The notes under the pieces are model-generated. The model worked only from the letters and a program-made list of their open reading frames with translations, made no database searches and had not been told where the DNA came from. DNA of 50,337 nt. It comes from a virus. A program made the position numbers and the translations under genes. The stretch lies in the IMG/VR virus record IMGVR_UViG_3300047510_001456, positions 1 to 50,337 of that record. One strand, 5' to 3'. Positions 1 through 22,274 of this stretch are shown here, in pieces. Each line of letters starts with the position of its first letter. Positions within the stretch are counted from its first letter, which is position 1.

Positions 1-387
1 ATAATAAATTTTGTTAGGTAATATATTCTTACTTTTTAAAAATTCTATTAAATTTATCCAAGGTTTTTTATAATAAAAATAAGTGTTAGGTTCAGTAGCC
101 TGATATATCAATAAAAAAACTTTAGGATTATCTCTAATAGTATCCCATACCGAAGGAGGCAACAAGTTAAGATCAGAATATGATTCAGGAGAATTTAAAT
201 TAAAAAAATAATAATATTTTTTATCTGAAGATTCTATGTTTGTTGATTTTGAATATTTTATTTCGCAAGTATCGAGTAGCCACTCAAAGCTCCAGGGATC
301 TGCAGGATCGTTTTTTGTAAATGTGATTTCTTTTTTATTAAAAACACTGTAATCAAAACGAAGATCGGGATACAATAAATTAATCAT
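1..387 (-). CDS. Unknown protein, partial (C-terminus beyond window)
   Basis: An open frame of 129 codons starts with ATG at 387-385 and runs without a stop to base 1, so the C-terminus lies outside the window. Its ATG overlaps the TAA stop (382-380) of the SGNH-like gene, matching the tight coupling in the rest of the cluster. The protein starts MINLLYPDLRFDYSVF and is rich in aromatic residues (a YYYFF run, several Trp), with no signal peptide or obvious membrane segment in the visible part. I do not recognise the family. Its place at the end of the radical SAM and glycosyltransferase cluster suggests it belongs to the same process, but that is inference only. The frame is convincing as coding because of its length, codon use and junction. 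Confidence 0.7.
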   Translation of the reverse strand, partial: MINLLYPDLRFDYSVFNKKEITFTKNDPADPWSFEWLLDTCEIKYSKSTNIESSDKKYYYFFNLNSPESYSDLNLLPPSVWDTIRDNPKVFLLIYQATEPNTYFYYKKPWINLIEFLKSKNILPNKIYY

Positions 388-1168
388 AAAAACAATTTTT
401 AAAAATCTTATTTGCTAGTTCATCGTGAGATTCTTTTGGCTTGTGGCCGAATCCGCAAACTTCTTTTTTATTATCTAAATAAGAATCTTTTAATAAAAAT
501 TTATCTTCTAAATTTTTCCATATGTCGTTTATATAAAAACTTATCTTATCTATAGTGTATACATTATGACTAGGATTAACTCCGTGCACCACTGGTTGAA
601 ATTTTAAATTGATAGGTAAATCGTTTAAAGCTAACAATGTCTTATTGTAGTTCCATATCATATACGAATCATTGAAAATGTTTTCAACACACCAGTTACG
701 AATTTCTTTATTAGGCCAATGCCAATCTAAAAATAATCTTGTTTTCATATCGCCGTGTTTATCGAAAATAAAAGTTCGATCCGGCTTAGTTAATCCTAGA
801 ATTACTAAATCAGTATTTGTAATGTCTCCATTATAATAATCTTTGGTAATTCGAAACAAGTGTTCATCTATTCCTGTGCCGCCTTTGCCTCTGTTTTCAA
901 AATTTTTATTTAATTTAGATGCTAATTGGCCTCCCCAGGAAGCCCGATGATATAATATTATATTTTCGTCAATTACATTCTTAACACTCTTATCTTTAGA
1001 AATTTTAGATTCTAGCCAAAGAGGTAATGTTTTAAAATTTTTTTTCCATTTGTTACATTCATCGAATGTCATTCGAAATACTTCGTGATCGACTATTTCT
1101 TGACCCATTGACCAACTACAGCCATAAATTAAAATACGATCAAAGGAATCTTTTTTAATTTTTTCCAT
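380..1168 (-). CDS. SGNH/GDSL-hydrolase-like protein
   Basis: This 262-residue protein has the hallmarks of a divergent SGNH hydrolase. Near the N-terminus, ILIYGCSWSMG (residues 13-22) matches block I, with the nucleophile serine after G-C instead of G-D. A middle segment around GKGGTGID may supply the oxyanion-hole glycine. The C-terminal ESHDELANKI, with His248, fits block V. The family includes esterases, acyltransferases and carbohydrate deacetylases, usually acting on acyl groups of sugars or lipids; the substrate here is unknown. There is no signal peptide, so it should act in the cytoplasm of the infected cell. It sits four bases downstream of a radical SAM gene and overlaps the next gene, at the end of a cluster with several glycosyltransferase-like genes, so a role in glycan tailoring is plausible. 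The missing Asp of GDSL and the weak DxxH context keep this tentative. Confidence 0.55.
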   Translation of the reverse strand: MEKIKKDSFDRILIYGCSWSMGQEIVDHEVFRMTFDECNKWKKNFKTLPLWLESKISKDKSVKNVIDENIILYHRASWGGQLASKLNKNFENRGKGGTGIDEHLFRITKDYYNGDITNTDLVILGLTKPDRTFIFDKHGDMKTRLFLDWHWPNKEIRNWCVENIFNDSYMIWNYNKTLLALNDLPINLKFQPVVHGVNPSHNVYTIDKISFYINDIWKNLEDKFLLKDSYLDNKKEVCGFGHKPKESHDELANKIFKNCFYD

Positions 1169-1172
1169 AATA

Positions 1173-2381
1173 TTACTTTACAAAAATTTTATCTATCTGA
1201 CTTTTCTGCCCACAGGTCATTGCACAATACGCTAATTTTCCTTCTTGTACAGTTTTCTTTTTCCAGCTATCAGTATAAACATTGTCAAGATAACCGCCAT
1301 TTATAATTTCTTTTAACGATCGTTTGTTTAAATCAAATAGATCTTTTCCTTCTTGATTAATAGCATATCTTAATTGAGTATCTTCATATAAATCAATAGT
1401 GCTATCAACCCTTGTTCCTACATAACAACACGGAAAGACAACGCCATGACAACTTACATATATCTCAGTTTGTTTTTCTAATAAACTAGAACAATTACTT
1501 TTACAATTTATTTCGTGGTTGTTGTAATCTAAAACATAACTACTCCAATCAGGTATTTCTCCATGAGAGAATTTTTCTAACTTATCTTTTACGCCCGGAT
1601 GTATTTTAGTTTTTTTAATTTCTTCAAGATATCCAATGTCTATTTTTTGTGGAATGACTTTTTGAATAGATTTAAACTCGTTTGTATTAATCAATGATTC
1701 GTCCGTAGGAGGTTGTAAGGTATATGACAAATCTCCGTTCTTGTCATATACTCCCCTGTCTTTATAACCGCCTTTGCTATCCTCGAAGCCTAGAGCTCTT
1801 TTTACTAAAAAGTTACTAAAATTTAAAGACTTCGCAAGATTTCTCGCTTCTTCGATCTGATGCTCATTATGCTTAAAAGTTAAGTAATCCCAGTACGCTT
1901 GAGCACCTGTTGAAGTATATGCTTTAACATTTTCCATCAGCACAGACCATTTTACATTTCTTCTATAAAGATGATTTGTATCTTCTAAACCATCAATACT
2001 AAAAGTAACCCTTCCATTATTTTTCAACAGGTTTCCTAACTCTTCCCAAAATTCTGGTTTTCTTAATCCGCCATTTGAATGAAATATTAACGTTGTTTCT
2101 GGACTAGAAGATCTTATATATTTTACTATTTCTATAAGATCTTTGGCCATCATAGGATCTCCGTGTGTTCCGCAAAACAATATTCTTTTAAGGTCTTGTA
2201 AAACATCAACAGGAAAATATTTCATGAATCGTTCTATAGTTATCTGATCTAATTGTAGATCCGGTCTCACGATATCTGTAGAATCAACAAACCTAGGACA
2301 GAATGGACAGGCAGCATTGCAATAATTTGTCAATTCTAAATGTAACAAAGATACCCTATTATTTTTCCACTGATACGTCAT
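1173..2381 (-). CDS. Radical SAM protein with SPASM-like C-terminal cysteines
   Basis: From ATG at 2381 this is a 402-residue protein. The radical SAM [4Fe-4S] motif C-x3-C-x2-C is seen in NYCNAACPFCPRF (Cys21, Cys25, Cys28), followed by the TIM-barrel elements GTHGDPM and VTFSIDGL. The C-terminal third carries more cysteines (CKSNC, YVSCHGVVFPCC, CAMTCGQ), as expected for a SPASM/twitch domain binding auxiliary clusters. SPASM enzymes commonly modify peptides or proteins, and some act on sugars or other small molecules; which applies here is not visible. An upstream in-frame ATG at 2453 would overlap the preceding gene by 95 bases and lacks a ribosome binding site. ATG 2381 has AAGGA eight bases upstream and overlaps by 23, so it is preferred. 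It is the last of five radical SAM genes and the only one without an N-terminal twitch-type segment. Confidence 0.85.
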   Translation of the reverse strand: MTYQWKNNRVSLLHLELTNYCNAACPFCPRFVDSTDIVRPDLQLDQITIERFMKYFPVDVLQDLKRILFCGTHGDPMMAKDLIEIVKYIRSSSPETTLIFHSNGGLRKPEFWEELGNLLKNNGRVTFSIDGLEDTNHLYRRNVKWSVLMENVKAYTSTGAQAYWDYLTFKHNEHQIEEARNLAKSLNFSNFLVKRALGFEDSKGGYKDRGVYDKNGDLSYTLQPPTDESLINTNEFKSIQKVIPQKIDIGYLEEIKKTKIHPGVKDKLEKFSHGEIPDWSSYVLDYNNHEINCKSNCSSLLEKQTEIYVSCHGVVFPCCYVGTRVDSTIDLYEDTQLRYAINQEGKDLFDLNKRSLKEIINGGYLDNVYTDSWKKKTVQEGKLAYCAMTCGQKSQIDKIFVK

Positions 2382-3561
2382 ATCCGTTTTCCTTAACAAT
2401 CTTATAAAATTCGTTGAAAGTTTCTTTAAAATTTTGTTTTCTATATTCATCATGCCACGCTGTTGTTCTTAAAAATTCATTCCAATACTTTATATCACAT
2501 TCTGAATTGTTCATAAATTCCAATACACCGTTTACAAAATAATATCCAGACAACTCAGGATTTATTGATTGTAAAATTTTTTCAGTAATAATTTTCTTAA
2601 TATTGTTAGGAATATTTACAATACACAAATGAGTAGGACCATGTACTAAATTAAGATATAAATTTTTTGTGTAATCATTAAAAAATTTCATAATTTCATC
2701 GATGTAAAAAATATTCAAAGTGCTAACAGTACAGCAAATCGAACAATGAAACTTATCATCTTTTTTAGAAATCTCTAATACCTTTAAAAAATTTTGTAAA
2801 ACTGTATCCCAGTCTGCTGGATATCTAATATATGTTAGTTGATCATATATTCCGTCTATACTAAAATCAATGTATACTTTTTTAAATTTATCAAGGACTT
2901 CAAATTTTTTGTCATCCCATATTGTTCCGTTTGTATTGTAATGAACTGTGATATTTTTTGCGACTCCTTTATCTATAGCATATTGCATTATTTCCCATTG
3001 CTTTTTAACTAAGAAAGGTTCACCGCCATAAAAATCAATATGTTCTATATTATGCAGATTATTTTTAAATTCTTCCCAGAATAAACTATCGTCGTCAAAT
3101 GAATGATTATGTTCTAATATAAAAGTTTTGTATTTTTCATCCGAACCTTTAAAATAACCAGCTGCTTTCCATTCGTCGTTCCACAGGCTACTATTAAAGG
3201 GACCGCAGGTACGACATTTAATATTACAGGTAGTTCCCATACTAATATCAAAAAGCCGAGGGCCGTCATATTTTTTTTCTAACAGATAACTATAAGTTTT
3301 GTTATCTCGCAATCTCTTGCTTACTTTTCCAGCTGCTTCTTCTTTCCAACAATATTGACAAGCTGCGTTCTTGATTCCATTTTCTAAATCTTCTCTAATT
3401 TTTTTAGAATCAGCACTTTCGATTATATCCTCAAAAGAATCAGTTCGAACATTTAACTTTTTTCCTAGTTTTTTAAAATGACCTTTTTGCATACAACAAT
3501 GACTACAACTACCGTCATTATTAATTCTTAGTCCGTACAAGGCGTTAACACATTTATTCAT
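2359..3561 (-). CDS. Twitch-domain radical SAM protein (copy 2)
   Basis: A 400-residue radical SAM enzyme. The N-terminus carries a cysteine-rich twitch-type segment (Cys4, CSHCC at 19-23, CQYC at 68-71), followed by the radical SAM motif TTCNIKCRTCGP (Cys112, Cys116, Cys119) and the SAM-contacting YGGEPFL near residue 178. DFSIDGI marks a later barrel strand. The order N-terminal twitch, then radical SAM barrel, matches the family known as twitch domain-containing radical SAM proteins. The N-terminal cysteines probably hold an auxiliary cluster or shape the substrate site. The C-terminus contains HDEYRKQNFKETFNEF, a motif shared with the next three genes. Start ATG 3561 overlaps the preceding stop by eight bases. 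No classical RiPP precursor gene is seen beside it. Substrate unknown. Confidence 0.87.
   Translation of the reverse strand: MNKCVNALYGLRINNDGSCSHCCMQKGHFKKLGKKLNVRTDSFEDIIESADSKKIREDLENGIKNAACQYCWKEEAAGKVSKRLRDNKTYSYLLEKKYDGPRLFDISMGTTCNIKCRTCGPFNSSLWNDEWKAAGYFKGSDEKYKTFILEHNHSFDDDSLFWEEFKNNLHNIEHIDFYGGEPFLVKKQWEIMQYAIDKGVAKNITVHYNTNGTIWDDKKFEVLDKFKKVYIDFSIDGIYDQLTYIRYPADWDTVLQNFLKVLEISKKDDKFHCSICCTVSTLNIFYIDEIMKFFNDYTKNLYLNLVHGPTHLCIVNIPNNIKKIITEKILQSINPELSGYYFVNGVLEFMNNSECDIKYWNEFLRTTAWHDEYRKQNFKETFNEFYKIVKENGYDVSVEK
2390..2394 (-). promoter_or_regulatory. Ribosome binding site deciding the 2381 start
   Basis: AAGGA on the minus strand ends eight bases before ATG 2381. The upstream alternative ATG at 2453 has no purine-rich sequence at that distance, so this site argues for the shorter protein. 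Confidence 0.6.
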
Positions 3562-4747
3562 AATATTTTTTTAGCTCTGGAAAAAAATTTAAGATGTTTT
3601 GATTTCTACGTTCGTCTGTTTTTTTAGTATATTCTACAAATCGTTTCCATAGATTGTCGGTTGAATCTTCTTGCAGGTTAGATATCAGTTGTTCGAACTT
3701 TTTAGGATACAAAGAGAACCATTTAGAAATTTTGATTTTTTCTATTGCTTTTTCTTTAAGTTCTTTCGGTAAAACTTTAGGTTGCAGAAATTCAGGACCT
3801 ATTAAAAGTTGAGTGTACACATTAGAAATTAGAACCCAATCTTTTGTTGACATTTCATCGAAGAACTCAGTAGCGAAAAAAGCATTATATGCCATAAATG
3901 TACAGTTTACAGTTATCTCTTTATTGTCGCCCATAAATTCGGCTATCTTAGATAGATTTGTATTCACTGTCTCGGTTTTAAATCCGGTCCTAATATATTC
4001 TCCCATATAACCTAGGCCATCTATAGAAACGCTAAAAGTAACTTTTTTAAATTTTCTCCACAGGTCAAAAATTTCGTATTTTCCGTACTTAACAACACTG
4101 CCATTGCTTTGATAATAAATCTCAGCATCGACTTGGTTTTCGATGCACCATTCTAAAAATTCGTAATGTTGTTGCTGAACCATTGGTTCGCCGCCAGCAA
4201 AATAAATGTATTTTATTGATTTTAAGTACTGCGAGTTGACTTGACAGAAATTTTTAATATTGTCTATACTGACAAAGTTATCAGTTGGTTTAATTTTCCA
4301 ACCTAACAAATCAGCATCTTCGTACCATTTAGTACTGTATAAAGGACCACACATTGTACATTTATAGTTACAAACATTACTAAATCTTACATCAAAATAT
4401 AAAATGTTTATTTCCGACAATGAACCATCTTCTCTAGTATTATCAACTACATTTTTTAACTGAGGTTCAAAATATCTATAATTACTGTGTTTTCTATGAG
4501 AATGACTTCCATACTTTTCTAATTTGTAACAATATTCACATACTGATGAAGGAATATCATTTAACATATTTTGTCTTAACTTGTTCATCGGTTCTGAGTT
4601 ATAAACCTGTTCGAATGATCCGTCAGTAACTAACGGAAAAGATGCTTTATCGCTAGCGACACAACAAGGTAACACTTTACCTTTTGGATTGATATATAAG
4701 TGCATCCAAGGTAAGATGCAAAAATATGGTTTATCTTGATAATTCAT
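3554..4747 (-). CDS. Twitch-domain radical SAM protein (copy 3)
   Basis: A 397-residue protein showing the clearest family signature of the group: FCILPWMHLYINPKG followed by a CC pair (Cys10, Cys28, Cys29), then CEYC (Cys70, Cys73). This N-terminal block resembles SPASM/twitch C-terminal blocks but sits ahead of the barrel. The radical SAM cluster motif is SNVCNYKCTMCGP (Cys126, Cys130, Cys133), and FAGGEPMV near residue 183 is the SAM-binding GGEP motif. The C-terminal KKTDERRNQNILNFFPEL is shared with its neighbours. It overlaps the genes on both sides by 17 and 8 bases, implying coupled translation and a common role. The reaction would begin with reductive cleavage of SAM to a 5'-deoxyadenosyl radical; the target is unknown. 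Confidence 0.9.
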   Translation of the reverse strand: MNYQDKPYFCILPWMHLYINPKGKVLPCCVASDKASFPLVTDGSFEQVYNSEPMNKLRQNMLNDIPSSVCEYCYKLEKYGSHSHRKHSNYRYFEPQLKNVVDNTREDGSLSEINILYFDVRFSNVCNYKCTMCGPLYSTKWYEDADLLGWKIKPTDNFVSIDNIKNFCQVNSQYLKSIKYIYFAGGEPMVQQQHYEFLEWCIENQVDAEIYYQSNGSVVKYGKYEIFDLWRKFKKVTFSVSIDGLGYMGEYIRTGFKTETVNTNLSKIAEFMGDNKEITVNCTFMAYNAFFATEFFDEMSTKDWVLISNVYTQLLIGPEFLQPKVLPKELKEKAIEKIKISKWFSLYPKKFEQLISNLQEDSTDNLWKRFVEYTKKTDERRNQNILNFFPELKKYYE

Positions 4748-6131
4748 ATAGCTGCTTACAATCGTTCAAAAATTCTGTATATTCTGGAAATGTATTATTA
4801 AAATCTAAATTACTTCTTTTATCATATTCGGTGAAAAACTTATAAAAATCAATTCTACCATTTCTAATTAAATCCTCAGTGATTTTTTGACCGCCTTCAT
4901 AAAAATAATCTTTTACTCGTTTTAATTTTTCATATTCGTGTTCGCTGAATTGATTAAAATTATAAAACGTTGGAATGTTTTTTCGTATAAATTCTAGATC
5001 ATTATCAATAAATTTTCCGAATTCCTTAGGCAAAATGTTTATCATCCAATGAGGTGGTTCTTTCAAATACGGTGTGTCAAAATGTATTCTATTTTGTCCT
5101 TTATTGAATTTTTTCCTTAACTCTAATATTTTTTCTAGTAAAGGACGAAAATATGCTACTGATAAAATGTTATACGTGATCATAAAAGATATTTGAAAAT
5201 TAATATTGGTATTTAGATACGTTTCTAAATTCTTTTCCCACAAATTAATATCTAATCCTCGACGTATATATTCAGCTTGTGAACCCCAAGCATCAATAGA
5301 AGTATATAAAAAGAATGATTTTATTTTTCCTTCTGTTAATAACTTATTGATTTTTTCGCTAAGACGTTTAATTTTTTCATTGCTAACTCCAAGATTGCTA
5401 TTCATATTCAATTCTAATTCTGGGCAAGGATCATTGTCAATCATATCTAACAATTTCCAGGTATTAGAGTTCATCAACGGTTCACCGCCGGTGATTCGAA
5501 ATACTTTTAAATCTTTTTTAAGATTTGGCCACCATTCCCAAAATGCATCAATATAAGGATTAGTTTCCTCGTCCGAATATACCTTCATCTGATCTAAGAA
5601 CTCAATACCGTACTGATTATAACTTATATCATAGTTACCATGTTTTTTGATTTCATCTATCCATAAACTACTGGCCTGAGGGCAACAGTAACCGCATTTA
5701 AAATTACAACCGTTACCAAAACTAACTTCTAAAAACATAGGATTAACGTTTGTATCCCAAGGAATAGATTTAATATATGCTGTTTCTTTTTGGGCATCTA
5801 ACCACTTACTTGCGCTATGAAACATTCTGTCACTGTAATGTTCTCCAGGAAGATCTTCTATGTTCCAACAGTAATAACATTCATCTGGTCGGCCTCCCTC
5901 GAGCATAATTTTACGCTGTTCTTTTTTCCACTTAGTGTTATGTAATGCACTAACATCAATTTTTATTTCTTCAAGTGGAATCTTCTGCGGTCTCGGATGA
6001 TAACAACTATGGTTATCCCCCATATGAAGATACAAGGTTTCATTTCTCCATTTCATTAAACAAAACCCAGGACCCACTGAGTTGAGTGTATCTCTGGTCT
6101 TTCGAACCCTATCCATATAACTATTAGACAC
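4731..6131 (-). CDS. Twitch-domain radical SAM protein (copy 4)
   Basis: From a GTG start this is a 466-residue protein. The N-terminal cysteine block (FCLMKW, HSCYHPRPQ, ECYYCWNIED) precedes the radical SAM motif GCNFKCGYCCPQ (Cys142, Cys146, Cys149) and FRITGGEPLM. It is a close paralogue of copy 5: both share CYHPR, IPxEEIKIDVS, LHNT and a WGSQAEYIR segment in the barrel. The C-terminal YDKRSNLDFNNTFPEYTEF matches the shared tail motif. The GTG start at 6131 is chosen because AAGGA lies seven bases upstream and the overlap with the previous stop is eight bases. The in-frame ATG at 6116 would leave that site too far away. The enzyme is expected to be cytoplasmic and oxygen-sensitive. Confidence 0.88.
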   Translation of the reverse strand: MSNSYMDRVRKTRDTLNSVGPGFCLMKWRNETLYLHMGDNHSCYHPRPQKIPLEEIKIDVSALHNTKWKKEQRKIMLEGGRPDECYYCWNIEDLPGEHYSDRMFHSASKWLDAQKETAYIKSIPWDTNVNPMFLEVSFGNGCNFKCGYCCPQASSLWIDEIKKHGNYDISYNQYGIEFLDQMKVYSDEETNPYIDAFWEWWPNLKKDLKVFRITGGEPLMNSNTWKLLDMIDNDPCPELELNMNSNLGVSNEKIKRLSEKINKLLTEGKIKSFFLYTSIDAWGSQAEYIRRGLDINLWEKNLETYLNTNINFQISFMITYNILSVAYFRPLLEKILELRKKFNKGQNRIHFDTPYLKEPPHWMINILPKEFGKFIDNDLEFIRKNIPTFYNFNQFSEHEYEKLKRVKDYFYEGGQKITEDLIRNGRIDFYKFFTEYDKRSNLDFNNTFPEYTEFLNDCKQLYELSR

Positions 6132-7554
6132 TGTTAATTCCTTTGCATTTATTGTAAAAATCTTCTAATTCTGGAAATACTTCTAAAAAATTTGTGTTTC
6201 TACGTTCGTCATGTTGACTAAAAAACGTATAAAAGTTTTCCATAGCTAGATTTTTATTAAATCCTGTATCTGATTTTATCCAGTCAATTAATCTTTGAAC
6301 TTTACTAATTTCAAAATCGCTAAATCCTTTAAACTCGTTCCGCCGTGTTTCGGGATTCTTTTTCATAAATTCAATAGTTTTTTCTAATTCAGAAACTAGC
6401 TCAGGAATTATTTTAGGATTTAAAAAATCTGGATCAATTAATTGAGGAACATCAAACCAAATTAATTGACGACTTGTATTATATTTTTTTCTCAGATTTA
6501 AAATATTTTCGATGTAGTTGTAAAATCCTGTATAACTCAACGCATTAAAAGTAATTATAAATGTAAGACTATGTTTGTCTGCATTTGCTAGAAAGTCTAT
6601 AACATTGTTATATAACATATCAAAGTCCATACCATTACGTATATATTCAGCCTGTGAGCCCCAACTATCTAAGCTACAGAACAGCATAAAATGATCTATA
6701 GCATCAGTGTCAGTAATCTCCTTTAGAGCTATCATAAACTTCGACCATTGATCTCCAGGAGGGCAACAATTACTAGTGATACTTAAATGTAAATCCTTTT
6801 TGGGATTATTTTTAACGTAATCAAACATTCTAAAGGTATTCTTATCCATTAATGGTTCACCACCGGTCATACGGAATGTTTGTAATGTAGGATATATTGT
6901 AGGTAACCATTCCCAAAATGCCAACAAATACGGATTGTCTGGTCCGTTGTTTATAGACATTTCATTTTCAATCCATCTAATATCGTTGTGAATCCTGTCC
7001 GTTAATTTGAAAGGTCCTTGTTTTTTAATCTCGTCCATCCAAGCAGTACTTAGATGAGGACTGCAATAACTACATTTAAAATTGCAGGCTTGATTAAAAT
7101 TAACTTCGACATATCTAGGTTTAGCATTTCCTTTACTGCCTAACTCTAACGCTTCTTCAATTAGTTCTGGTTCCCAAACATCTTTACTTCTATATGCTCG
7201 ATCACTAAGTTGAGAACCGCTGTCCTCAATCTGCCAACAAAATTCACATTCTTGAGGACGCACTCCGTTCAACATCAACTGTCTTTGATTTTTTTTATAC
7301 GTTGTATTATGTAATGAGCTTACATCAATTTTTATTTCTTCGATAGGAATTAAATGACTTCTAGGATGGTAACAACTATGTGTGCGACCTGTGGGAATAT
7401 GTATACTCACATTAAACCATTTAGCTAAACAAAAACTATTGCTAACCTCATTCAATTGTTGATGAACGTATTCTGCGTCAAGCAGATATCTCGATTGATA
7501 TCGTCCGTCTATTTTTCGAAGTTCGTTACCTTTAATATTTCTGTTATATTCCAT
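6124..7554 (-). CDS. Twitch-domain radical SAM protein (copy 5)
   Basis: From ATG 7554 this is a 476-residue radical SAM enzyme, the first of five in transcription order. The N-terminal cysteine segment has FCLAKW, HSCYHPR and ECEFCWQIED. The cluster motif is ACNFKCSYCSPH (Cys157, Cys161, Cys164), followed by FRMTGGEPLM and FCSLDSWGSQAEYIR. The C-terminal HDERRNTNFLEVFPEL is the clearest copy of the tail motif common to four of the five enzymes. A TTG at 7575 could extend the frame, but the ATG at 7554 gives the normal short overlap (11 bases) with the preceding gene; neither has a strong ribosome binding site. It follows the transferase-like genes directly, linking the radical SAM block to them in one transcription unit. 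Confidence 0.88.
   Translation of the reverse strand: MEYNRNIKGNELRKIDGRYQSRYLLDAEYVHQQLNEVSNSFCLAKWFNVSIHIPTGRTHSCYHPRSHLIPIEEIKIDVSSLHNTTYKKNQRQLMLNGVRPQECEFCWQIEDSGSQLSDRAYRSKDVWEPELIEEALELGSKGNAKPRYVEVNFNQACNFKCSYCSPHLSTAWMDEIKKQGPFKLTDRIHNDIRWIENEMSINNGPDNPYLLAFWEWLPTIYPTLQTFRMTGGEPLMDKNTFRMFDYVKNNPKKDLHLSITSNCCPPGDQWSKFMIALKEITDTDAIDHFMLFCSLDSWGSQAEYIRNGMDFDMLYNNVIDFLANADKHSLTFIITFNALSYTGFYNYIENILNLRKKYNTSRQLIWFDVPQLIDPDFLNPKIIPELVSELEKTIEFMKKNPETRRNEFKGFSDFEISKVQRLIDWIKSDTGFNKNLAMENFYTFFSQHDERRNTNFLEVFPELEDFYNKCKGINSV
6139..6143 (-). promoter_or_regulatory. Ribosome binding site deciding the GTG start at 6131
   Basis: AAGGA on the minus strand lies seven bases before GTG 6131. From ATG 6116 the gap would be 22 bases, so the GTG is the better start. 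Confidence 0.55.
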
Positions 7555-8884
7555 ATTGTTGTTTGAGCCAGTCAAAGTCGTTGATTTTTGAAAGCATTAC
7601 AGGATTATTTTTATTCTCTTCTCCGAATTTTTTTCCTTCCAATGCTCCTCTTATAGCATCTTCGCCAAACTTTTTATCTATACCTGTAGTACACCATGCT
7701 TCTAATCTAGTTGCAGTTTCTTCTTCGAACTGCCTTTCGATGGATCGACTTGCTAATTTTACACATTCTCTAAATGCAGATTTCCAAGTATTAAAAGAAT
7801 CTGTATTAAATGCTGTAATATTTGAAATCGATTCCATCGCTTTAAATTGATTGCTAATAGACGTAGTCATATCCGGCGTTGACACATCCATATTCAATGT
7901 AAGATCTCGAGGAAGAAGTTTAACACCGCCGTAGCCATAAACTAGATCATTAATAGGATTTTTACTGCGCCATACGTGTACAATGTCTTTTTCCCATCTA
8001 GAAACTTTAAAATCAAAATTAAAATCTCCTTCTATAATCGCATCTCCATCAACTACCCAAAACATAAACGTCGAAGCTATTTCTGCAGCTTTTATATGTG
8101 CTTGATGTATTCCCTTCACTCCGTGAATTCGTTTGGCTTTAGGAAATCTTGTTATCAAATTTTCGTAATTCTCTTCAGCATTGGGTTCTTCGTAACTTAT
8201 AAAAATAATATCATAATCTGAACTCTTTGTAGCTACGATATCATATTCTTTTTTATCTACAGCGTATCTTAAATTAAATTCTCTTTTAGACAACGGTTTG
8301 TATTTGCTGCACAGCACCAAACCATTTATGTAAGAATGAGTTTCATTAGAAGAATTTTTAAAAATGTGATTTTCTCTTCTATCATAAACATTGTGATGGC
8401 TGAAATATAAATCTAATACAGCATCATCAATAACTTCGATCTCAGGCCATTTTAACCAAAAAATTTCATCGTCAATAATTTGATATTCTTCAAATGTCGA
8501 AGGGCTATAGATGTTGTACCTTTTAGGATTACTAACAACTATATCTATTTCTTTCTTGTCTGTAAAAAATCTATGATGAAACTCTTTCTGAGATATTTTT
8601 AACGATTTAGGAAATAAACAGATTCCATCATAGTGTTTTCCATTTTTAAAAACGTGAACATACATATCATCCCATTTAGTAGCTTTATATTCTAATAGAT
8701 TAAGATCGTCGCCGATCTCAAGATCGTCCCATATAACCCAAAACATTTTTGTGAAAGCGCGAGATCTTATGTCTTCGTATGATTCTATATTACATAGTCT
8801 CTGAGCAATAGGATACTTAGATTTGAATTTTTTCCAATCCTCATCCGATCCTTTAGTTCGAGAAACATAAAAAATATCATACAT
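7544..8884 (-). CDS. Tandem-domain glycosyltransferase-like protein
   Basis: A 446-residue protein built from two related domains. Residues 1 to about 220 begin MYDIFYVSRTKG, and residues about 223 to 446 begin YDIIFISYEEPNAEEN. Each has a beta strand, a helix with K-x-x-x-x-P-x-A-x-R, an alanine-rich helix and then a hydrophobic strand ending in acidic residues (FWVIWDDLE in the first, FWVVDGDA with Asp279 and Asp281 in the second). The second domain closely resembles the gene just upstream, including HGVKGxxxAHxxAAE and a later W-K/R-A-x-F-R-E segment. This looks like a GT-A-type fold with a DxD-like metal site, but no donor or acceptor can be inferred. ATG 8884 overlaps the previous stop by eight bases and is preferred over ATG 8917, which would overlap by 41; neither has a strong ribosome binding site. 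Confidence 0.6.
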   Translation of the reverse strand: MYDIFYVSRTKGSDEDWKKFKSKYPIAQRLCNIESYEDIRSRAFTKMFWVIWDDLEIGDDLNLLEYKATKWDDMYVHVFKNGKHYDGICLFPKSLKISQKEFHHRFFTDKKEIDIVVSNPKRYNIYSPSTFEEYQIIDDEIFWLKWPEIEVIDDAVLDLYFSHHNVYDRRENHIFKNSSNETHSYINGLVLCSKYKPLSKREFNLRYAVDKKEYDIVATKSSDYDIIFISYEEPNAEENYENLITRFPKAKRIHGVKGIHQAHIKAAEIASTFMFWVVDGDAIIEGDFNFDFKVSRWEKDIVHVWRSKNPINDLVYGYGGVKLLPRDLTLNMDVSTPDMTTSISNQFKAMESISNITAFNTDSFNTWKSAFRECVKLASRSIERQFEEETATRLEAWCTTGIDKKFGEDAIRGALEGKKFGEENKNNPVMLSKINDFDWLKQQYGI

Positions 8885-9791
8885 TTGCGGGCACAGGAAG
8901 TCTAAAATAAGTATCATTTAAATTCATTGTTTCATTATATAAATCTAACGTATACTTACTCTGTATAGAATCTAAATAAGGCCAATGTAGACCTAATTGT
9001 ACTTTAATTTTTTCTCCGAGATCTTTTGTAGCTTCAATTAATCCCGTATGATCGATTTCGTAACACTTTACATTTTCATTATAGATGTTACGCAGAATCT
9101 CAAAATCTCTTACATCAATATAATTCCAATCCGTACAGTTAGTCATCCAGGTGCCTAATCTAGCTCCCATAACTGCAAATAACCCATTTTCTTCATGAGC
9201 ACCTACTGTAGACCACATACGAAGTCTATGGATATTGTGCCACCATATGCGTTCTTGTATCTCTTGAGGCTGAACTTTTACTCCGTCAAGTAATGTCATC
9301 TTAACTCCTTCTCTAAAACCTGCTCTCCAGGCTTGGAAAGGACTACCCGTTATTATACTATCACTGAAACTTAAAGGAAAGTTTTTATATCCGTCTTCCC
9401 AACAAAAATCAACCTGTCCTCTATCGCTGTCAGAATTTTCATGTGTTTTCATTTTTAACACAAATTCTTTATTCCAGATTTTTAATCCTCCATTGCCATA
9501 ACGGAGTCCATTAATCACGTTGCGACCGCACCAGCCGTAGACTTGTATCTTAGGATCTTTCATATCAAGATCGATATTAAAAAATCTGGTATCTACTATG
9601 TTGTCAGCATCAACTGTAACAAACCAATTAGTCTCAGATTTTTCAGCGGCAGCTTTGTGTGCGTGGTCGCTGCCTTTAACTCCGTGAACACGTTTAGCCC
9701 AAGGAACTTTATTGCACAAGTCTGCATAATGCAGATCTGCATTAGGTTCGTCGTAACTTAAAAATACCACATCAAATTCTATAACTTTCAT
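8877..9791 (-). CDS. GT-A-type glycosyltransferase-like protein
   Basis: A 304-residue protein of a type I recall as common in T4-like marine phages. After an N-terminal strand (FDVVFLSYDEPNADLHY) come HGVKGSDHAHKAAAEK and WFVTVDADNIVD, in which Asp61-x-Asp63 fits the metal-binding DxD of GT-A glycosyltransferases. Downstream segments include GGLKIWNKEF, FQAWRAGFREGVKM and MWSTVGAHEENGLFAVMGAR. The family function is unproven; transfer of a sugar from a nucleotide sugar is the natural reading of the fold. It overlaps the upstream gene by four bases (ATGA) and the downstream tandem-domain paralogue by eight, so the two are probably produced and used together. No signal peptide or membrane segment is visible. 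Confidence 0.6.
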   Translation of the reverse strand: MKVIEFDVVFLSYDEPNADLHYADLCNKVPWAKRVHGVKGSDHAHKAAAEKSETNWFVTVDADNIVDTRFFNIDLDMKDPKIQVYGWCGRNVINGLRYGNGGLKIWNKEFVLKMKTHENSDSDRGQVDFCWEDGYKNFPLSFSDSIITGSPFQAWRAGFREGVKMTLLDGVKVQPQEIQERIWWHNIHRLRMWSTVGAHEENGLFAVMGARLGTWMTNCTDWNYIDVRDFEILRNIYNENVKCYEIDHTGLIEATKDLGEKIKVQLGLHWPYLDSIQSKYTLDLYNETMNLNDTYFRLPVPANV

Positions 9792-10384
9792 TTAATTTCC
9801 AAAGTATAATTAGAAAATAGTCTTCTAGTAAAAATACTAAATTTACTGCGTAATTTACACTTAAATTTTTGTGGATATGCTACTAATTCATCTATAGAAA
9901 ATTTTATCATTTCTTTTAAATTATTAGGATCATTATAACCAGTAATTAAAAATATCATTTCTTTTTCTCCCGGCCACGACATTTCTTTTAACGACGGATT
10001 GATTTTAAAGACGAGTTCTTCTTCTTTTCTACTGTACGTTATCTGAATATCAGGTTTAGATATGTTTGACCATTTTTTTTCAATTACTCTATGCAATACA
10101 TTATCAATCTTAGTTAATACGAGATCGTAATCTTGATTTTCTAAAATCTTAAAAGGAGTTTTACTGATATCTACTTTTATTGAAGATAGTGTTTTAACTC
10201 CGATTAATAAATCATCAGCCATATCAGAATCAATTTCTATACAGTTATTATCCATTATATCATTATGACTAGGAAAGACTTCTGTAACTGTTCCTGATTC
10301 TAAAGTAAATCGAATGTAGTATTTTATTACAGGAATGTCTATTGTTAAGTCGAAGTAATCTTCAACTACTGTTTCTTGGACCAT
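9788..10384 (-). CDS. Unknown 198-residue protein in the transferase cluster
   Basis: I do not recognise this protein. It is acidic in its first half (for example IEIDSDMADDLL) and basic at the C-terminus (FKCKLRSKFSIFTRR), with alternating hydrophobic patterns that suggest beta structure. There are no cysteine clusters, signal peptide, membrane segment or catalytic motif I can name. The start ATG 10384 has GAGGA about seven bases upstream and overlaps the preceding gene by 19 bases; the stop overlaps the next start by four. Its fixed place between two pairs of glycosyltransferase-like genes suggests an accessory or scaffold role in the same process, but that rests only on context. Confidence 0.7.
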   Translation of the reverse strand: MVQETVVEDYFDLTIDIPVIKYYIRFTLESGTVTEVFPSHNDIMDNNCIEIDSDMADDLLIGVKTLSSIKVDISKTPFKILENQDYDLVLTKIDNVLHRVIEKKWSNISKPDIQITYSRKEEELVFKINPSLKEMSWPGEKEMIFLITGYNDPNNLKEMIKFSIDELVAYPQKFKCKLRSKFSIFTRRLFSNYTLEIK

Positions 10385-11211
10385 AAAATATCCTCTAGAA
10401 GGCTCACATATTCATTAGTCATTAGATCTTTTTCAACGTAATGGATAATGTTTGTTTGTTCAAAATTTCCTATCTTTAAATTTCCTTGATCATTTAAATA
10501 AAATCCTACGTGATCAGTAACTTTATCTGAAGAAAATGACCAGTCTTGTATCCTAGGTTTTAAATGTGTTACTCGAGGAAAATCTAAATTATAACTAATT
10601 TTGTCTGAGATATCTAAAATTTTTGCACTGAGAGAAAACGCTTCATCGGTACCTAAAATTTTTGGAATGTGGCTACTTAAAAATAAGTTTGAAAATTCTA
10701 TAGGATTTTCTATAATAAATCTTCCTAGAGTAAAAAATTCTTTTGCTAGGTCAGAATTTTTTTCAAAATAAGTGTAGAAACTATAAAGGTTAGGAAGTTC
10801 ATTTTTTTCAAAAGTTTTTCTATAAAAATTGTCTTTAACAAGCTCGTCTCTAAATGTATAACTTTTGCTCGGTAGATATAATTCTGTTTTATTTTCAATA
10901 AAATAATCTACCCAATGACTGTAATCTCTTAGGAATAACATATCTGCGTCTAAACATACTGTGTGTTCGAACGGTGTTAATTCATCCATCCATGACCTGC
11001 CATCCCATCCTTGCTTTTCGTTCCATTCTATTACATTGTCAAATACCCACGGTGAATTAAGATCTCTAACTTTAGATTTGTCATCTATCACCAGTGCTAC
11101 TTTATCGTACCCTGCTTTTTGGGTATTTTTAATGCTAATGGCTAAACAATAGGCCATCTTAAGATAGTCTACATTTTCATTAGATGCAAATATTAGGTAT
11201 CCAAAATTCAT
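10366..11211 (-). CDS. Glycosyltransferase-like protein, GT8-type DxD
   Basis: A 281-residue protein with the outline of a retaining GT-A (GT8-like) glycosyltransferase. The N-terminal MNFGYLIFASNENVDYL forms a nucleotide-binding strand and loop. VALVIDDKS is a second strand. HTVCLDADMLFLRDY carries the DxD motif (Asp88, Asp90), which normally binds a metal and the nucleotide-sugar diphosphate. It is paralogous to the upstream gene (LIFAxN near the start, then L-x-D-x-D followed by hydrophobics). The start overlaps that gene by four bases. The substrate cannot be read from sequence. Candidate acceptors are host surface glycans or virion proteins made from the adjacent fibre genes. Confidence 0.62.
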   Translation of the reverse strand: MNFGYLIFASNENVDYLKMAYCLAISIKNTQKAGYDKVALVIDDKSKVRDLNSPWVFDNVIEWNEKQGWDGRSWMDELTPFEHTVCLDADMLFLRDYSHWVDYFIENKTELYLPSKSYTFRDELVKDNFYRKTFEKNELPNLYSFYTYFEKNSDLAKEFFTLGRFIIENPIEFSNLFLSSHIPKILGTDEAFSLSAKILDISDKISYNLDFPRVTHLKPRIQDWSFSSDKVTDHVGFYLNDQGNLKIGNFEQTNIIHYVEKDLMTNEYVSLLEDILWSKKQ

Positions 11212-12068
11212 ATTAATTCCATTAAAATATCTTTATTTCTAATAATGCTCTGTTTATTCATGATATGAACATCGGTGTTTATAATTTTTGCAGATTTGTA
11301 ATTTCCATCATCATGCGGATTCATTAAAATTATCATTTTTCCATTGCTGTCAATTTCTAATACTGTATCTTTATCTAATACAGAAGTTATCGGAGGAAGA
11401 TTATAAACATTTTCGACCTCATAACCACTTAATATATGCTTGGCAATGCTGAAAGCAATATCATTTCTAAACTGAGACGGATTGAATCTAAAAAGATCGG
11501 CAAAATAAACATAATTTAACTTTATAAATTCTACCAATTTAAAGAAAAACTCACTTTCTTTATTTTTTTTGAACATAACTGTCGTAGCCCACAACAAGGG
11601 AATACTCGATTCAGAAATTCTTTTATCTAAATATCCCGGACGATCTTCTAAGATATCATTCAAAGAATCTCCAATCATAACACTAGATTCGACATTCCAA
11701 AATTCGTTTAGTCTATTGGTAAAAATTAAAAAATCGCTGTCTATTAATAATGTATTGTTATACGGAGTTAACGAATATGCATCACATCTATTAGAATTCA
11801 AAAATGGTACTGTCTGATGATGAAATCCGTCATGGAGTTTTCTTGTATTTTCTGTATAGGGATATTCTATTTCTATGATATTTTCAAAAATATCATTTAA
11901 CTTTTTCTCCAGTCCACTTTTTATTAACCAATTCAAAGTTCCGTTATCTGTTACTAACGATACTGGCAATTGAAGATTTTTCTTGGCTAGCCCGCCCGAT
12001 ATCATTGCCATCACTCCGTAATCAATAAAAGGACTGTTGTGAGCAAAAATTAATATGCCATTGTTCAT
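11208..12068 (-). CDS. Glycosyltransferase-like protein with DSD motif
   Basis: A 286-residue protein starting MNNGILIFAHNSPFIDYGVM and containing VSLVTDNG, then NTLLIDSDFLIF, where Asp110-x-Asp112 is a DxD-type metal site. The order of elements parallels the downstream 281-residue gene, and the two look like diverged duplicates. A later IIEIEYPYTENTRKLHDGF block probably lines the acceptor side. No membrane anchor is seen. It overlaps its neighbours by four bases on each side (ATGA junctions), which is typical of translational coupling. I read it as a GT-A fold enzyme of unknown specificity; the alternative is a degenerate, non-catalytic sugar-binding relative. Confidence 0.58.
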   Translation of the reverse strand: MNNGILIFAHNSPFIDYGVMAMISGGLAKKNLQLPVSLVTDNGTLNWLIKSGLEKKLNDIFENIIEIEYPYTENTRKLHDGFHHQTVPFLNSNRCDAYSLTPYNNTLLIDSDFLIFTNRLNEFWNVESSVMIGDSLNDILEDRPGYLDKRISESSIPLLWATTVMFKKNKESEFFFKLVEFIKLNYVYFADLFRFNPSQFRNDIAFSIAKHILSGYEVENVYNLPPITSVLDKDTVLEIDSNGKMIILMNPHDDGNYKSAKIINTDVHIMNKQSIIRNKDILMELI

Positions 12069-12415
12069 AGTTCTAAAAGTTTTTCCAACGATCTAGTTTT
12101 TTTAACTTTTTCATATTCTTTATAATATTCCAAAGTAGAGGTAAAATATCTGTCTAATATTTCATTTTTAAACTCATCTAGATCATTAATTAAAATTGGA
12201 TTATTATTAGAATCTAAAAGAGGTACATCATTTTTTCTACCGTTATTAATAAGCATATCGACAAAAGTTATCAATGTCATATCTATTTTAAACACACCTC
12301 CACCATGGCCGTAGGTAAGCCTAGCTTCATTCTTTTCTTTTAAAATTTTTCGTTGAATTGAAAACGTATGCCTGAAATTAGAAAAATCTAAGGCTTTTCG
12401 AAGACGTTCATCCAT
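12065..12415 (-). CDS. Small conserved-type unknown protein, first gene of the accessory operon
   Basis: A 116-residue protein with a charged, helical look, containing ARLTYGHGGGVFKIDMTLITFVDML near residues 31-56 and ending in a helical KKTRSLEKLLEL. I think similar small proteins occur in T4-like marine phages, but I know no function for them. It is the first gene after a late-promoter-like box (12444-12451) and has a strong G-rich ribosome binding site (AAGGGGG) a few bases before ATG 12415. Its stop overlaps the start of the DSD transferase by four bases, so it leads the accessory polycistron. Confidence 0.72.
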   Translation of the reverse strand: MDERLRKALDFSNFRHTFSIQRKILKEKNEARLTYGHGGGVFKIDMTLITFVDMLINNGRKNDVPLLDSNNNPILINDLDEFKNEILDRYFTSTLEYYKEYEKVKKTRSLEKLLEL

Positions 12416-12443
12416 CTATACCCCCTTAATTAAAGTAGCACAT

Positions 12444-12451
12444 TATTTAGT
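12444..12451 (-). promoter_or_regulatory. Late-promoter-like box ACTAAATA before the accessory operon
   Basis: On the minus strand the bases read ACTAAATA, close to the T4 late consensus TATAAATA and to the CTAAATA form I recall for cyanophages. It lies 28 bases before ATG 12415, leaving room for a start site and the G-rich ribosome binding site. It overlaps a perfect dyad. Confidence 0.5.
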
Positions 12452-12461
12452 GCCACTAAAT
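12445..12461. repeat. 17-base perfect dyad overlapping the late-promoter box
   Basis: ATTTAGTG and CACTAAAT form eight-base arms around one central C. The dyad lies in the 60-base gap between the 339-residue structural gene and the accessory operon. It could be an operator or simply a symmetric promoter. A terminator is less likely because no T-run follows on the minus strand. Confidence 0.6.
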
Positions 12462-12475
12462 TTAGGGGTACAAGA

Positions 12476-13507: not shown

Positions 13508-15256
13508 TTATATTACAATACATTCAACAAGTTTTTGCTGTACTTCATCGTTGGTTTCTAAGGCTATAGCAAACACATCAGAATGCGAATGATGGGTAGC
13601 TTTTTGAGCAGTACCGTTATTGACTGCGATTAGACGATCGCCCTTTTTAATTGATCCTACAACTTTAACAGGGACTCTTCCCTTAAGTGCTACTGCTACA
13701 CCACCAGATAAATTGTTGTTCATAAGATATGCAGGGAACTCTGAAATAACTCCTATCGCTCTATCTCCAAATTTTGATGCTGTGATCTCTTTTTCGCCGC
13801 CTACAGACACAACTGTTCCTACTTCATAATCTTGATCTGGTAGGTATTTTTCTGCTAAATCGCCGTATTCTGCTGCTGTGGCTGTGCCTCTAAACTTAAC
13901 AGCATATATATCACCGGATGCATCTCTAGCTGCTATAGTACTGGCTGTTGCTGTAGTCTTTGCTGAACGATAATTTGGATCTGTGTCGGACGCACCATCA
14001 TTAATTCTTAATCTATCACTTTTATCCGAAATTCCTACAAATTGATTTGCTAAAATATTTCCTGACGAGTTTCTTATAGGAATAGTGCTGTTAGCCACAG
14101 CTTCGGATGCAGAAACACCTCCTAACGTAGATGCTGATGTTGCAGTTCCTGTAACGCTACCTGTGACGTTACCTGTGACATTACCTGTAAGACTACCAGT
14201 ATAAACTTTAGTGGTAGCATTATATGCCACAGAATTGTCGCTGGCTAGCACATTTCCTTTATGAACACCAGTTGTGTTTCCGGTAACATTACCCACTAAT
14301 GAACCGTTAAATGTTGAAGCAGTAACCTGTAGCCAGGATGAACCCGTTGTTCCTAAATTAAACGTTGCATCTGCTGCTGGAAATACTCCAGTAGTTCCAA
14401 TTCTTAAAACATCAAGATCTATCGCTGTCTTAATTCTAAATGTTATGTTATCACCAAGCTGATTTTCTAACAAAACATTATTACCATCTTCAACCCAAAT
14501 TCTCAAATCGTTTTGATCACCGATAGTTATTCCCGAATCAGCTACAGACAAACCTGTTGAAAAAGTAGCTGCGCCGGCTCTTACAAAATCTGTAGCAGAA
14601 AAACCACCTAACTTTAAAGCATTAGAAGAAGTGCCCCAAAAATAATGATCTGTACTGGTAACTCCTGTAGTTCCGTTGGTGTTAACTAAGTTAATGCCTT
14701 TCTTAATATCTAGAAAACCTGTGATAGGGTTAGATGTATTCAATCTAAAAGCATCGGCACTTAGGATCGCAACAACTTCTCCTTCGGAAACTAATTTTAA
14801 AATAGAGTGATTATTATTAACATCATCTTTTACTGTATCTTGAACTGCTGCAGATTCACCGGTAGTAGGGCTGGCTTCAGGTCCAATTAATATGTATTCT
14901 GTTCCGTTCCAGGTATAAAGCTGTTCTGCACTTGTGTCAAACCACATATCTCCTGGTTGTAATCCTGGAGGGGGTTCAACTCCAATCTCTGCACCACTAG
15001 CAGTTCTGAATCTAGTACCGTCAAAAAACTTAAGCTTTTTACTACCAGTATCAAACCAAATTTGACCTGTAATTCTTTTTGGAGGGGCTGTCGTATTGGC
15101 AAAATTCTCTAGCAAGTGAAGAAAATTTTCATTTTGCACTTCGCCATAACCAGCATAATTTTTACCAACAAATCTTAGATCTGTAGTAGTGTCAATAGTA
15201 CCGTCATCGACTGATACTAAAAAAGTGCCGTTAAATTTATCAACTTGATATGCCAT
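13508..15256 (-). CDS. Tail-fibre-type protein with G2-peptidase-like C-terminus
   Basis: A 582-residue fibre-type protein. Residues 1 to about 130 form the module shared by four consecutive genes: VDKFNGTFLVSVDDGTIDTT, GYGEVQNENFLHLLENFAN, ITGQIWFDT, then a second WFDTSAEQLYTWNG ending LIGPEAS. The middle has glycine-valine-threonine fibre repeats (TGNVTGNVTGSVTG). The C-terminus (from about residue 455) starts AEYGDLAEKYLPDQDYEVGT and contains AIGVISEFPAYLMN. This arrangement resembles the G2-type autoprocessing/intramolecular chaperone domain of phage appendages. If correct, that domain may help trimerise the fibre and then be cut off; I cannot assign the catalytic residues. Its own late-promoter-like box and CGGAG site lie upstream. 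Confidence 0.72.
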   Translation of the reverse strand: MAYQVDKFNGTFLVSVDDGTIDTTTDLRFVGKNYAGYGEVQNENFLHLLENFANTTAPPKRITGQIWFDTGSKKLKFFDGTRFRTASGAEIGVEPPPGLQPGDMWFDTSAEQLYTWNGTEYILIGPEASPTTGESAAVQDTVKDDVNNNHSILKLVSEGEVVAILSADAFRLNTSNPITGFLDIKKGINLVNTNGTTGVTSTDHYFWGTSSNALKLGGFSATDFVRAGAATFSTGLSVADSGITIGDQNDLRIWVEDGNNVLLENQLGDNITFRIKTAIDLDVLRIGTTGVFPAADATFNLGTTGSSWLQVTASTFNGSLVGNVTGNTTGVHKGNVLASDNSVAYNATTKVYTGSLTGNVTGNVTGSVTGTATSASTLGGVSASEAVANSTIPIRNSSGNILANQFVGISDKSDRLRINDGASDTDPNYRSAKTTATASTIAARDASGDIYAVKFRGTATAAEYGDLAEKYLPDQDYEVGTVVSVGGEKEITASKFGDRAIGVISEFPAYLMNNNLSGGVAVALKGRVPVKVVGSIKKGDRLIAVNNGTAQKATHHSHSDVFAIALETNDEVQQKLVECIVI

Positions 15257-15276
15257 CTATAAACTCCGATATTCAG

Positions 15277-15284
15277 TATTTATG
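15277..15284 (-). promoter_or_regulatory. Late-promoter-like box CATAAATA
   Basis: CATAAATA on the minus strand, seven of eight bases matching the T4 late consensus TATAAATA, lies 20 bases before ATG 15256 in a 41-base gap. A CGGAG ribosome binding site (15264-15268) sits between box and start. It would give the last two fibre-block genes their own late transcript. Confidence 0.55.
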
Positions 15285-15297
15285 CGTTAAACTATTC

Positions 15298-17430: not shown

Positions 17431-17441
17431 CTAACGCTCCA

Positions 17442-19460: not shown

Positions 19461-19470
19461 TTTCTTTACC

Positions 19471-22266: not shown

Positions 22267-22274
22267 TATTTATT
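22267..22274 (-). promoter_or_regulatory. Late-promoter-like box AATAAATA at the end of the giant gene
   Basis: AATAAATA on the minus strand overlaps the TAA stop of the giant gene (22272-22270) and matches seven of eight bases of TATAAATA. It would drive the small structural gene and the fibre genes separately from the 14.6 kb gene upstream. It lies very close to ATG 22262. Confidence 0.4.

Follow-up and report, generated by a model that had tools for sequence, protein, structure and literature searches.

A conserved block of glycosyltransferase-like and radical SAM genes behind a predicted late-promoter hairpin in a T4-like phage

The window, by which we mean the whole 50,337-nucleotide stretch analysed here (IMG/VR virus record IMGVR_UViG_3300047510_001456), carries five adjacent, overlapping radical SAM genes among its minus-strand open reading frames between positions 1173 and 7575. 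In the direction of transcription these are R1 (6124-7575 from a TTG start, with the likely ATG start at 7554), R2 (4731-6131), R3 (3554-4747), R4 (2359-3561) and R5 (1173-2453, alternative start 2381). All five place C-x3-C-x2-C within the core domain, as expected of the radical SAM superfamily, with profile scores far beyond chance, and their junctions overlap by 8, 17, 8 and 23 nt, the last value assuming that R5 starts at 2381. A GGEP motif and, at the N-terminus, a twitch block of four cysteines are found in R1-R4. A sequence-only reading of this DNA had described five such genes, four of them with twitch cysteines and GGEP, and overlaps of 8-23 bases, and each of these points was borne out.

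R1-R4 belong to the NCBIfam family NF033640 (N_Twi_rSAM; cut-off 170 bits), scoring 310, 301, 357 and 309 bits over nearly the full profile length, and conserved cysteines are seen in alignments A2 and A3. R5 falls outside this family (59 bits, core only): it has neither the twitch block nor GGEP, which is replaced by GDP, and it combines a radical SAM core with a C-terminal SPASM-like block that scores slightly short of the SPASM cut-off. With the Pfam Radical_SAM profile (PF04055, cut-off 29.5), R5 scored 42.5 bits and R2-R5 all exceeded the cut-off; R1 fell below it (25.4) yet passes NF033640. R1-R4 are therefore one family and R5 a different architecture, and the "five distinct paralogues" of the earlier reading are four plus one by family rather than five alike. 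The annotation consulted for NF033640 assigns no reaction to the family, and our searches recovered no known substrate for any N_Twi_rSAM member. An AF2 model of R1 (pLDDT 79.7) gave weak, core-level fold matches to viperin, QueE, AprD4, SuiB and DesII; we rejected any reading of R1 chemistry from these matches, which stem from the shared core and do not discriminate among sugar, nucleotide and peptide substrates.

All five genes are under strong purifying selection, with dN/dS against the related locus L006 of 0.018-0.044 (dS near saturation). They are old, separate lineages rather than recent duplicates: R2 is the sister group of R1, the R1/R2-type clade has a support of 100, and recent tandem duplication of a single gene was rejected, as R1-R4 fall in separate clades common to several phages. 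On this tree the label for high-identity R1 proteins (R1hi) required two changes, not one, because lower-identity R1 rows and a Bdellovibrionales protein share that clade.

The radical SAM genes had been placed immediately downstream of the fibre block, but six genes (7544-12415), all on the minus strand, intervene. The first, H116 (12065-12415), encodes a conserved 116-aa protein of unknown function with no significant match in Pfam or PHROG; its identity is 57-100% among the best relatives listed and 37-63% in a wider alignment. It is followed by GTA (11208-12068), GTB (10366-11211; weak match to PHROG 1903, of unknown function), H198 (9788-10384; an unknown protein whose position is conserved, at 29-100% identity), GTC (8877-9791) and GTD (7544-8917; 444-973 aa in relatives). 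GTA is homologous to GTB (hhalign 99.9%) and GTC to GTD (hhalign 100%), and a D-x-D metal motif is conserved in all four proteins (alignments of 71-75 sequences each; 73 for GTA). GTC is the best conserved of them, with a mean column identity of 87% and an invariant DXD, and Foldseek searches with its poor, low-confidence model (pLDDT 46) returned mainly GT-A and related nucleotidyltransferase folds, with GtrB, HddC, ArnC and SunS at the top. The earlier description of these neighbours as glycosyltransferase-like thus holds as far as the conserved DXD and the GT-A matches of GTC go, but no glycosyltransferase profile in Pfam, NCBIfam or PHROG recognises GTA-GTD. An assignment of GTA-GTD to GT8 or GT2 through proteins of Vibrio phage K566 and Halobacteriovorax was also rejected (hhalign probability at most 17%), although the profiles grown from the fetched loci held two sequences each and this negative is therefore not strong.

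Beyond R5 lies a gene (380-1168, minus strand) for an SGNH-hydrolase-like protein, a call made from motifs only (GCSWS, and GH...H near the C-terminus) in a 16-sequence alignment, with no Pfam match. The incomplete gene Z (1-387, minus strand) follows. Its counterpart in L006 encodes a 398-aa protein, and there the next gene encodes a B12-dependent, KedN5-like radical SAM protein.

A search of deposited phages for DNA-level relatives found none. Related viral contigs commonly carry runs of four to eight radical SAM genes, for which the literature that we surveyed gave no substrate. Among relatives only R1 and R2 are near-constant; some have R1 and R2 alone, or R2 with one R3-like gene. R3-R5 come and go as a variable cassette, and therefore five is not the conserved unit; the idea of a fixed run serving one five-step pathway is not supported in the form proposed. 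We anchored a colinearity test on H116, a non-radical-SAM gene, in the 39 loci that extend 7 kb or more downstream of it: GTA, GTB, GTC and GTD followed in every one, and a radical SAM gene in 37. The conserved unit is a colinear block of fibre genes, H116, GTA, GTB, H198, GTC, GTD, R1 and R2, followed by variable genes.

The head of this block is marked by an RNA hairpin (12417-12472, minus strand; MFE -26.1 kcal/mol, z -5.6) that sequesters the Shine-Dalgarno sequence GGGGG (12421-12425) and carries TAAATA in its loop (12444-12449). RNAalifold found no structure on a MAFFT alignment of the hairpin because the positions of the arms shift, and the hairpin was evaluated instead by single folds and an arm-swap test. 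Across 70 relatives, native arms folded at -14.2 kcal/mol and swapped arms at -8.8 kcal/mol, a result that none of 500 permutations reached. The ribosome site is thus hidden, as in T4 gene e, in a hairpin that compensatory change maintains. In folds of RNA beginning past TAAATA, the Shine-Dalgarno sequence is free or weakly paired. On the minus strand, 4 of 13 TAAATA sites lie within the 285 intergenic bases ahead of genes (P ~7e-7), and the window encodes a gp55-like late-transcription sigma factor (46872-47714, plus strand; phrog_12791, 271 bits) that is the likely reader of this motif. Together, the hairpin with its TAAATA loop and the late sigma factor imply that the block is probably expressed late in the window's lineage, and the same features uphold the late-operon setting first proposed. 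In distant relatives, consensus sigma70 promoters drive the block.

Late promoters inside hairpins that hide the ribosome site have been described for the leaders of T4 gene e and I-TevI (PMC3014915). The layout predicted here from sequence is the same and appears to be new for such a block: it heads enzyme genes rather than a lysis or homing gene, and its motif is TAAATA, not the full TATAAATA. Radical SAM islands of this general type, in contrast, have been described before in aquatic phages and in those of Campylobacter. The Campylobacter phages CP220 and CPt10 carry an interchangeable five-gene radical SAM module (2010; PMC2853527), which is similar in these respects: a T4-related phage, five radical SAM genes per module, and a position near baseplate genes (gp5-like lysozyme, PAAR). 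However, the five CP220 proteins tested are shorter and have weak or no scores against R1-R4 profiles, neither H116 nor GTA-GTD turned up among the tested CP220 proteins, and CP220 has an amidinotransferase, whereas none was identified in the window's block. The block is thus not a CP220-type module, taken as a homologous radical SAM set with an amidinotransferase. A T4-like genome from Tara with 12 radical SAM genes (PMC5332604) resembles the window as a marine T4-like virus rich in such genes. Another precedent is the host recognition cluster of pelagimyophages and cyanomyophages, a variable island amid structural genes in which fibres, glycosyltransferases and radical SAM cassettes occur together (2020; PMC7029224). 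The window's group is itself marked by the conserved order fibre-H116-GTA-GTB-GTC-(GTD)-R1-R2 and the predicted late-promoter hairpin.

Radical SAM runs also lie beside sugar-related genes in unrelated settings. Those of Vibrio phage K566 are accompanied by two GT8 genes, a weak GT4 and PagP, and those of CP220 by two nucleotide-diphospho-sugar transferases, as annotated. One locus (L101) has two GT7 galactosyltransferases with lectin-like domains followed by seven radical SAM genes, two others (L172 and L177) have NodU/CmcH-type carbamoyltransferases nearby, and on a Halobacteriovorax chromosome (L202) the neighbours are GT1, GT2 and an NAD-epimerase. These recurrent associations make glycan tailoring the best reading. 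The proposed link to fibres and glycans found support on both sides, but K566 and several IMG/VR loci have radical SAM clusters with no fibre genes detected nearby; most such loci whose neighbours were examined keep sugar-related genes. The counter-evidence that the earlier reading named, related clusters with no link to fibre or glycan genes, is thus found in part.

We therefore favour, tentatively and at somewhat less than even confidence, R1-R5 as the tailoring enzymes of a glycan module expressed late, whose acceptor would most likely be the fibre proteins. The gp55-like sigma factor would start late transcription at TAAATA before H116. In transcripts begun there the 5' arm of the hairpin would be missing, leaving the ribosome site open and the block translated, while read-through RNA from upstream would, on the pattern of T4 gene e, remain closed. 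GTA-GTD, as putative GT-A sugar or nucleotidyl transferases, would build or attach a short glycan. R1-R4, each with one SAM cluster and one auxiliary cluster, and R5 could then carry out separate radical steps on the sugar or its precursor, for which epimerisation, dehydration, dehydrogenation and cross-linking are candidates. The SGNH-like gene and, in L006, the B12-dependent radical SAM gene may contribute acyl or methyl-type changes, and newly made fibre proteins would be the acceptor in the window's lineage. The acceptor is the weakest part of this mechanism, and the failure of profile libraries to recognise GTA-GTD, with the poor model of GTC, also counts against it.

Less probable, in our view, is that the same glycan enzymes alter host lipopolysaccharide or capsule, excluding other phages or stopping progeny from binding debris. 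This is the published reading of the glycosyltransferases in pelagimyophage islands (PMC7029224); PagP near the K566 cluster is a lipid A enzyme, the Halobacteriovorax homologue sits among polysaccharide-type genes, and co-adaptation to a single receptor may explain the linkage to fibres. The sigma70-driven blocks of distant relatives are no less compatible with a role at the host surface than with virion modification. In the window's clade, however, late gating of translation would leave scant time for exclusion, and nothing in the block was recognised as a membrane transporter or a lipid-linked sugar gene.

We think it improbable that the radical SAM enzymes directly modify the side chains of virion proteins, those of the fibres or others, by epimerisation or by thioether or C-C cross-links, with no sugar involved. 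The upstream fibre genes share the orientation of the block, and the weak structural and sequence neighbours include the peptide-modifying enzymes EpeE/YydG, SkfB and SuiB, but within the main clade GTA-GTD match R1/R2 in constancy, K566 and others have lost the linkage to fibres, and neither a RiPP-recognition partner nor a precursor gene was seen. A RiPP cluster was rejected, the block having no noted precursor-like small gene. Very improbable is a small-molecule or peptide natural product, or the low-oxygen auxiliary metabolism suggested for CP220 (PMC2853527), for although CP220 carries an amidinotransferase and L006 a downstream KedN5-like B12 methyltransferase, the tightly overlapping genes had no noted small precursor ORF between them, neither carrier-protein nor export genes were recognised, and the block keeps a constant place by the fibres in the main clade.

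Carried to its full extent, the preferred glycan-tailoring reading would give T4-like aquatic phages a dedicated assembly line, timed to late infection, for decorating their own fibres with radical-modified sugars, with a radical SAM cassette swapped between phages so that the virion glycan diversifies much as hosts diversify O-antigens; we regard this wider picture as doubtful. The constant unit from H116 to R2 and the late switch reduce the problem to a small number of genes and a testable time window, and H116 can serve as an anchor gene in the search for more islands. Should the virion be the target, these genes would represent a new class of phage protein modification; with the host surface as target, they would be phage-encoded glycan editors.

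The radical SAM (rSAM) island of the window is a variant of islands already described; its block order is conserved and its late-switch hairpin covaries. Published examples are the interchangeable module of five rSAM genes in CP220/CPt10 (2010; PMC2853527), a T4-like genome from Tara that carries 12 rSAM genes (2017; PMC5332604), and pelagimyophage host-recognition islands combining glycosyltransferases with rSAM cassettes (2020; PMC7029224). Compared with CP220, the block in the window has different rSAM families, and we found no description of a covarying late-switch hairpin for such islands in the open-access literature searched.

The source of the window is a 50,337-base IMG/VR virus fragment of a T4-like myophage, in which ORFs were called mechanically. 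Its gp6-like baseplate wedge protein is about 34-36% identical to the closest relatives on deposit (Sinorhizobium phage Phosso, Salicola phage SCTP-2 and Agrobacterium phage Atu_ph07). Other products include proteins resembling gp25 and gp5, an SbcD/gp47-like nuclease and a gp55-like late sigma factor. A 4868-aa protein encoded between gp6 and the fibre genes (22270-36876) matched both a family of virion structural proteins and a wedge subunit of the baseplate; it is possibly a giant replacement of gp7/VrlC. Four consecutive fibre-type proteins (13508-21588) have a similar N-terminal region in common, which suggests that they are paralogues attaching to the same site.

The five rSAM genes, R1-R5, lie on the minus strand at 1173-7575, and their overlapping junctions and rSAM motifs are as the sequence-only reading had described them. 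R1-R4 encode N_Twi_rSAM proteins (301-357 bits; cut-off 170), and R5 has the rSAM core only, plus a C-terminal SPASM-like block. Six genes separate the fibres from R1: the conserved block proteins H116 and H198 and the candidate GT-A-like proteins GTA-GTD, in the order H116, GTA, GTB, H198, GTC, GTD. Relative to the related locus L006, dN/dS was 0.018-0.044 for the five rSAM genes, an imprecise estimate with dS >1. In a tree of 121 R1-R4-type proteins, R1, R2, R3 and R4 of the window each belonged to a different clade, in most cases well supported, and Bdellovibrionota proteins of chromosomal origin were interspersed among these; some deeper branches were long and unsure. The Bdellovibrionota loci L198, L202 and L203 carry R1/R2-like rSAM genes on the chromosome, with a similar unknown protein (KDVKIWxRNS) nearby in L198 and L202.

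Relatives comprised about 270 loci from five viral-contig scans, taking at most the best 80 loci per similarity search. Most close relatives keep the order H116-GTA-GTB-H198-GTC-GTD-R1-R2 with fibre genes upstream. One scan took the non-rSAM gene H116 as its anchor, so that circularity was avoided; its loci are the 80 best matches to the window and therefore represent only part of the overall diversity. Of the 39 that extended 7 kb or more downstream, every one carried GTA, GTB, GTC and GTD; an rSAM gene was present in 37, and the other two ended about 7.1 kb downstream. Gene content 3' of R2 varies: L036, L045 and L160 have no rSAM gene beyond R2; L006, L015, L155, L175 and L184 have the R3-R4-R5 set; and others have further genes. 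Loci of at least 15 kb anchored on the rSAM-protein alignments A2 and A3 hold one to eight rSAM genes. GTD (7544-8917 in the window) ranges from 444 to 973 aa among relatives, apparently through repeats of a GTC-like domain. The fibre-H116-GT-rSAM block also occurs on the Neomarinimicrobiota MAG contigs L199 and L200, which are probably binned phage sequence.

The minus strand of the window contains thirteen late-promoter-like TAAATA sites, and four of these (46823, 40345, 15282 and 12449), each ahead of a gene, fall within its 285 intergenic bases (binomial P about 7e-7). The site at 12449 occupies the loop of a strong hairpin spanning 12417-12472 (-26.1 kcal/mol, z -5.6), and the Shine-Dalgarno sequence of H116 is part of the hairpin's 3' arm. 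TAAATA occupied the hairpin-loop place in 70 of 100 non-redundant H116 upstream regions; in 61 of these 70 the ribosome site was paired, and in 42 the predicted fold put both features where expected. Native arms paired more strongly (mean -14.2 kcal/mol) than arms swapped between loci (-8.8; best of 500 permutations, -9.7), which shows compensatory change. Once the 5' arm was removed from the fold, which mimics initiation just after TAAATA, the ribosome site was unpaired or paired only weakly. A review describes this arrangement for T4 gene e and I-TevI: RNA initiated at the late promoter is without the 5' strand of the hairpin structure, and read-through RNA made early is translated poorly (PMC3014915). 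In the window and many relatives, the leader hairpin would thus be a late translational switch of the gene e type, in a setting other than lysis or homing genes.

The hairpin is absent from many distant relatives, which have sigma70-type promoters with up to 12/12 consensus matches; the predicted late timing is therefore a property of the window's lineage and not of the module everywhere it occurs. Sigma70-type promoters upstream of H116 head the block in L174, L176, L180, L181 and others. At this place L191, L193-L196, L110, L112 and L118 show a terminator-like hairpin and then a -10-like box, whose nearness to the start codon could indicate leaderless mRNA.

GTA-GTD gave no match to glycosyltransferase profiles; their DXD is conserved, and GTC, in a low-confidence model, has GT-A-type fold matches. 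The R1 model was good (pLDDT 79.7), its structural matches being to the generic rSAM core. Vibrio phage K566 has N_Twi-like rSAM genes next to PagP, two GT8 genes and a weak match to GT4, and its annotation shows no fibre gene in that neighbourhood. The CP220 rSAM cluster, near gp5-like and PAAR genes, includes two annotated nucleotide-diphospho-sugar transferases; L101 has two GT7 galactosyltransferases and then seven rSAM genes; carbamoyltransferases come after the rSAM genes in L172 and L177; and in Halobacteriovorax L202 the neighbouring genes include GT1, GT2 and NAD-epimerase. Because sugar-related genes accompany rSAM genes in several settings, we favour glycan tailoring as the function of the block. 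As its target we favour the virion over the host surface, solely on the grounds of the late switch and the linkage to fibre genes.
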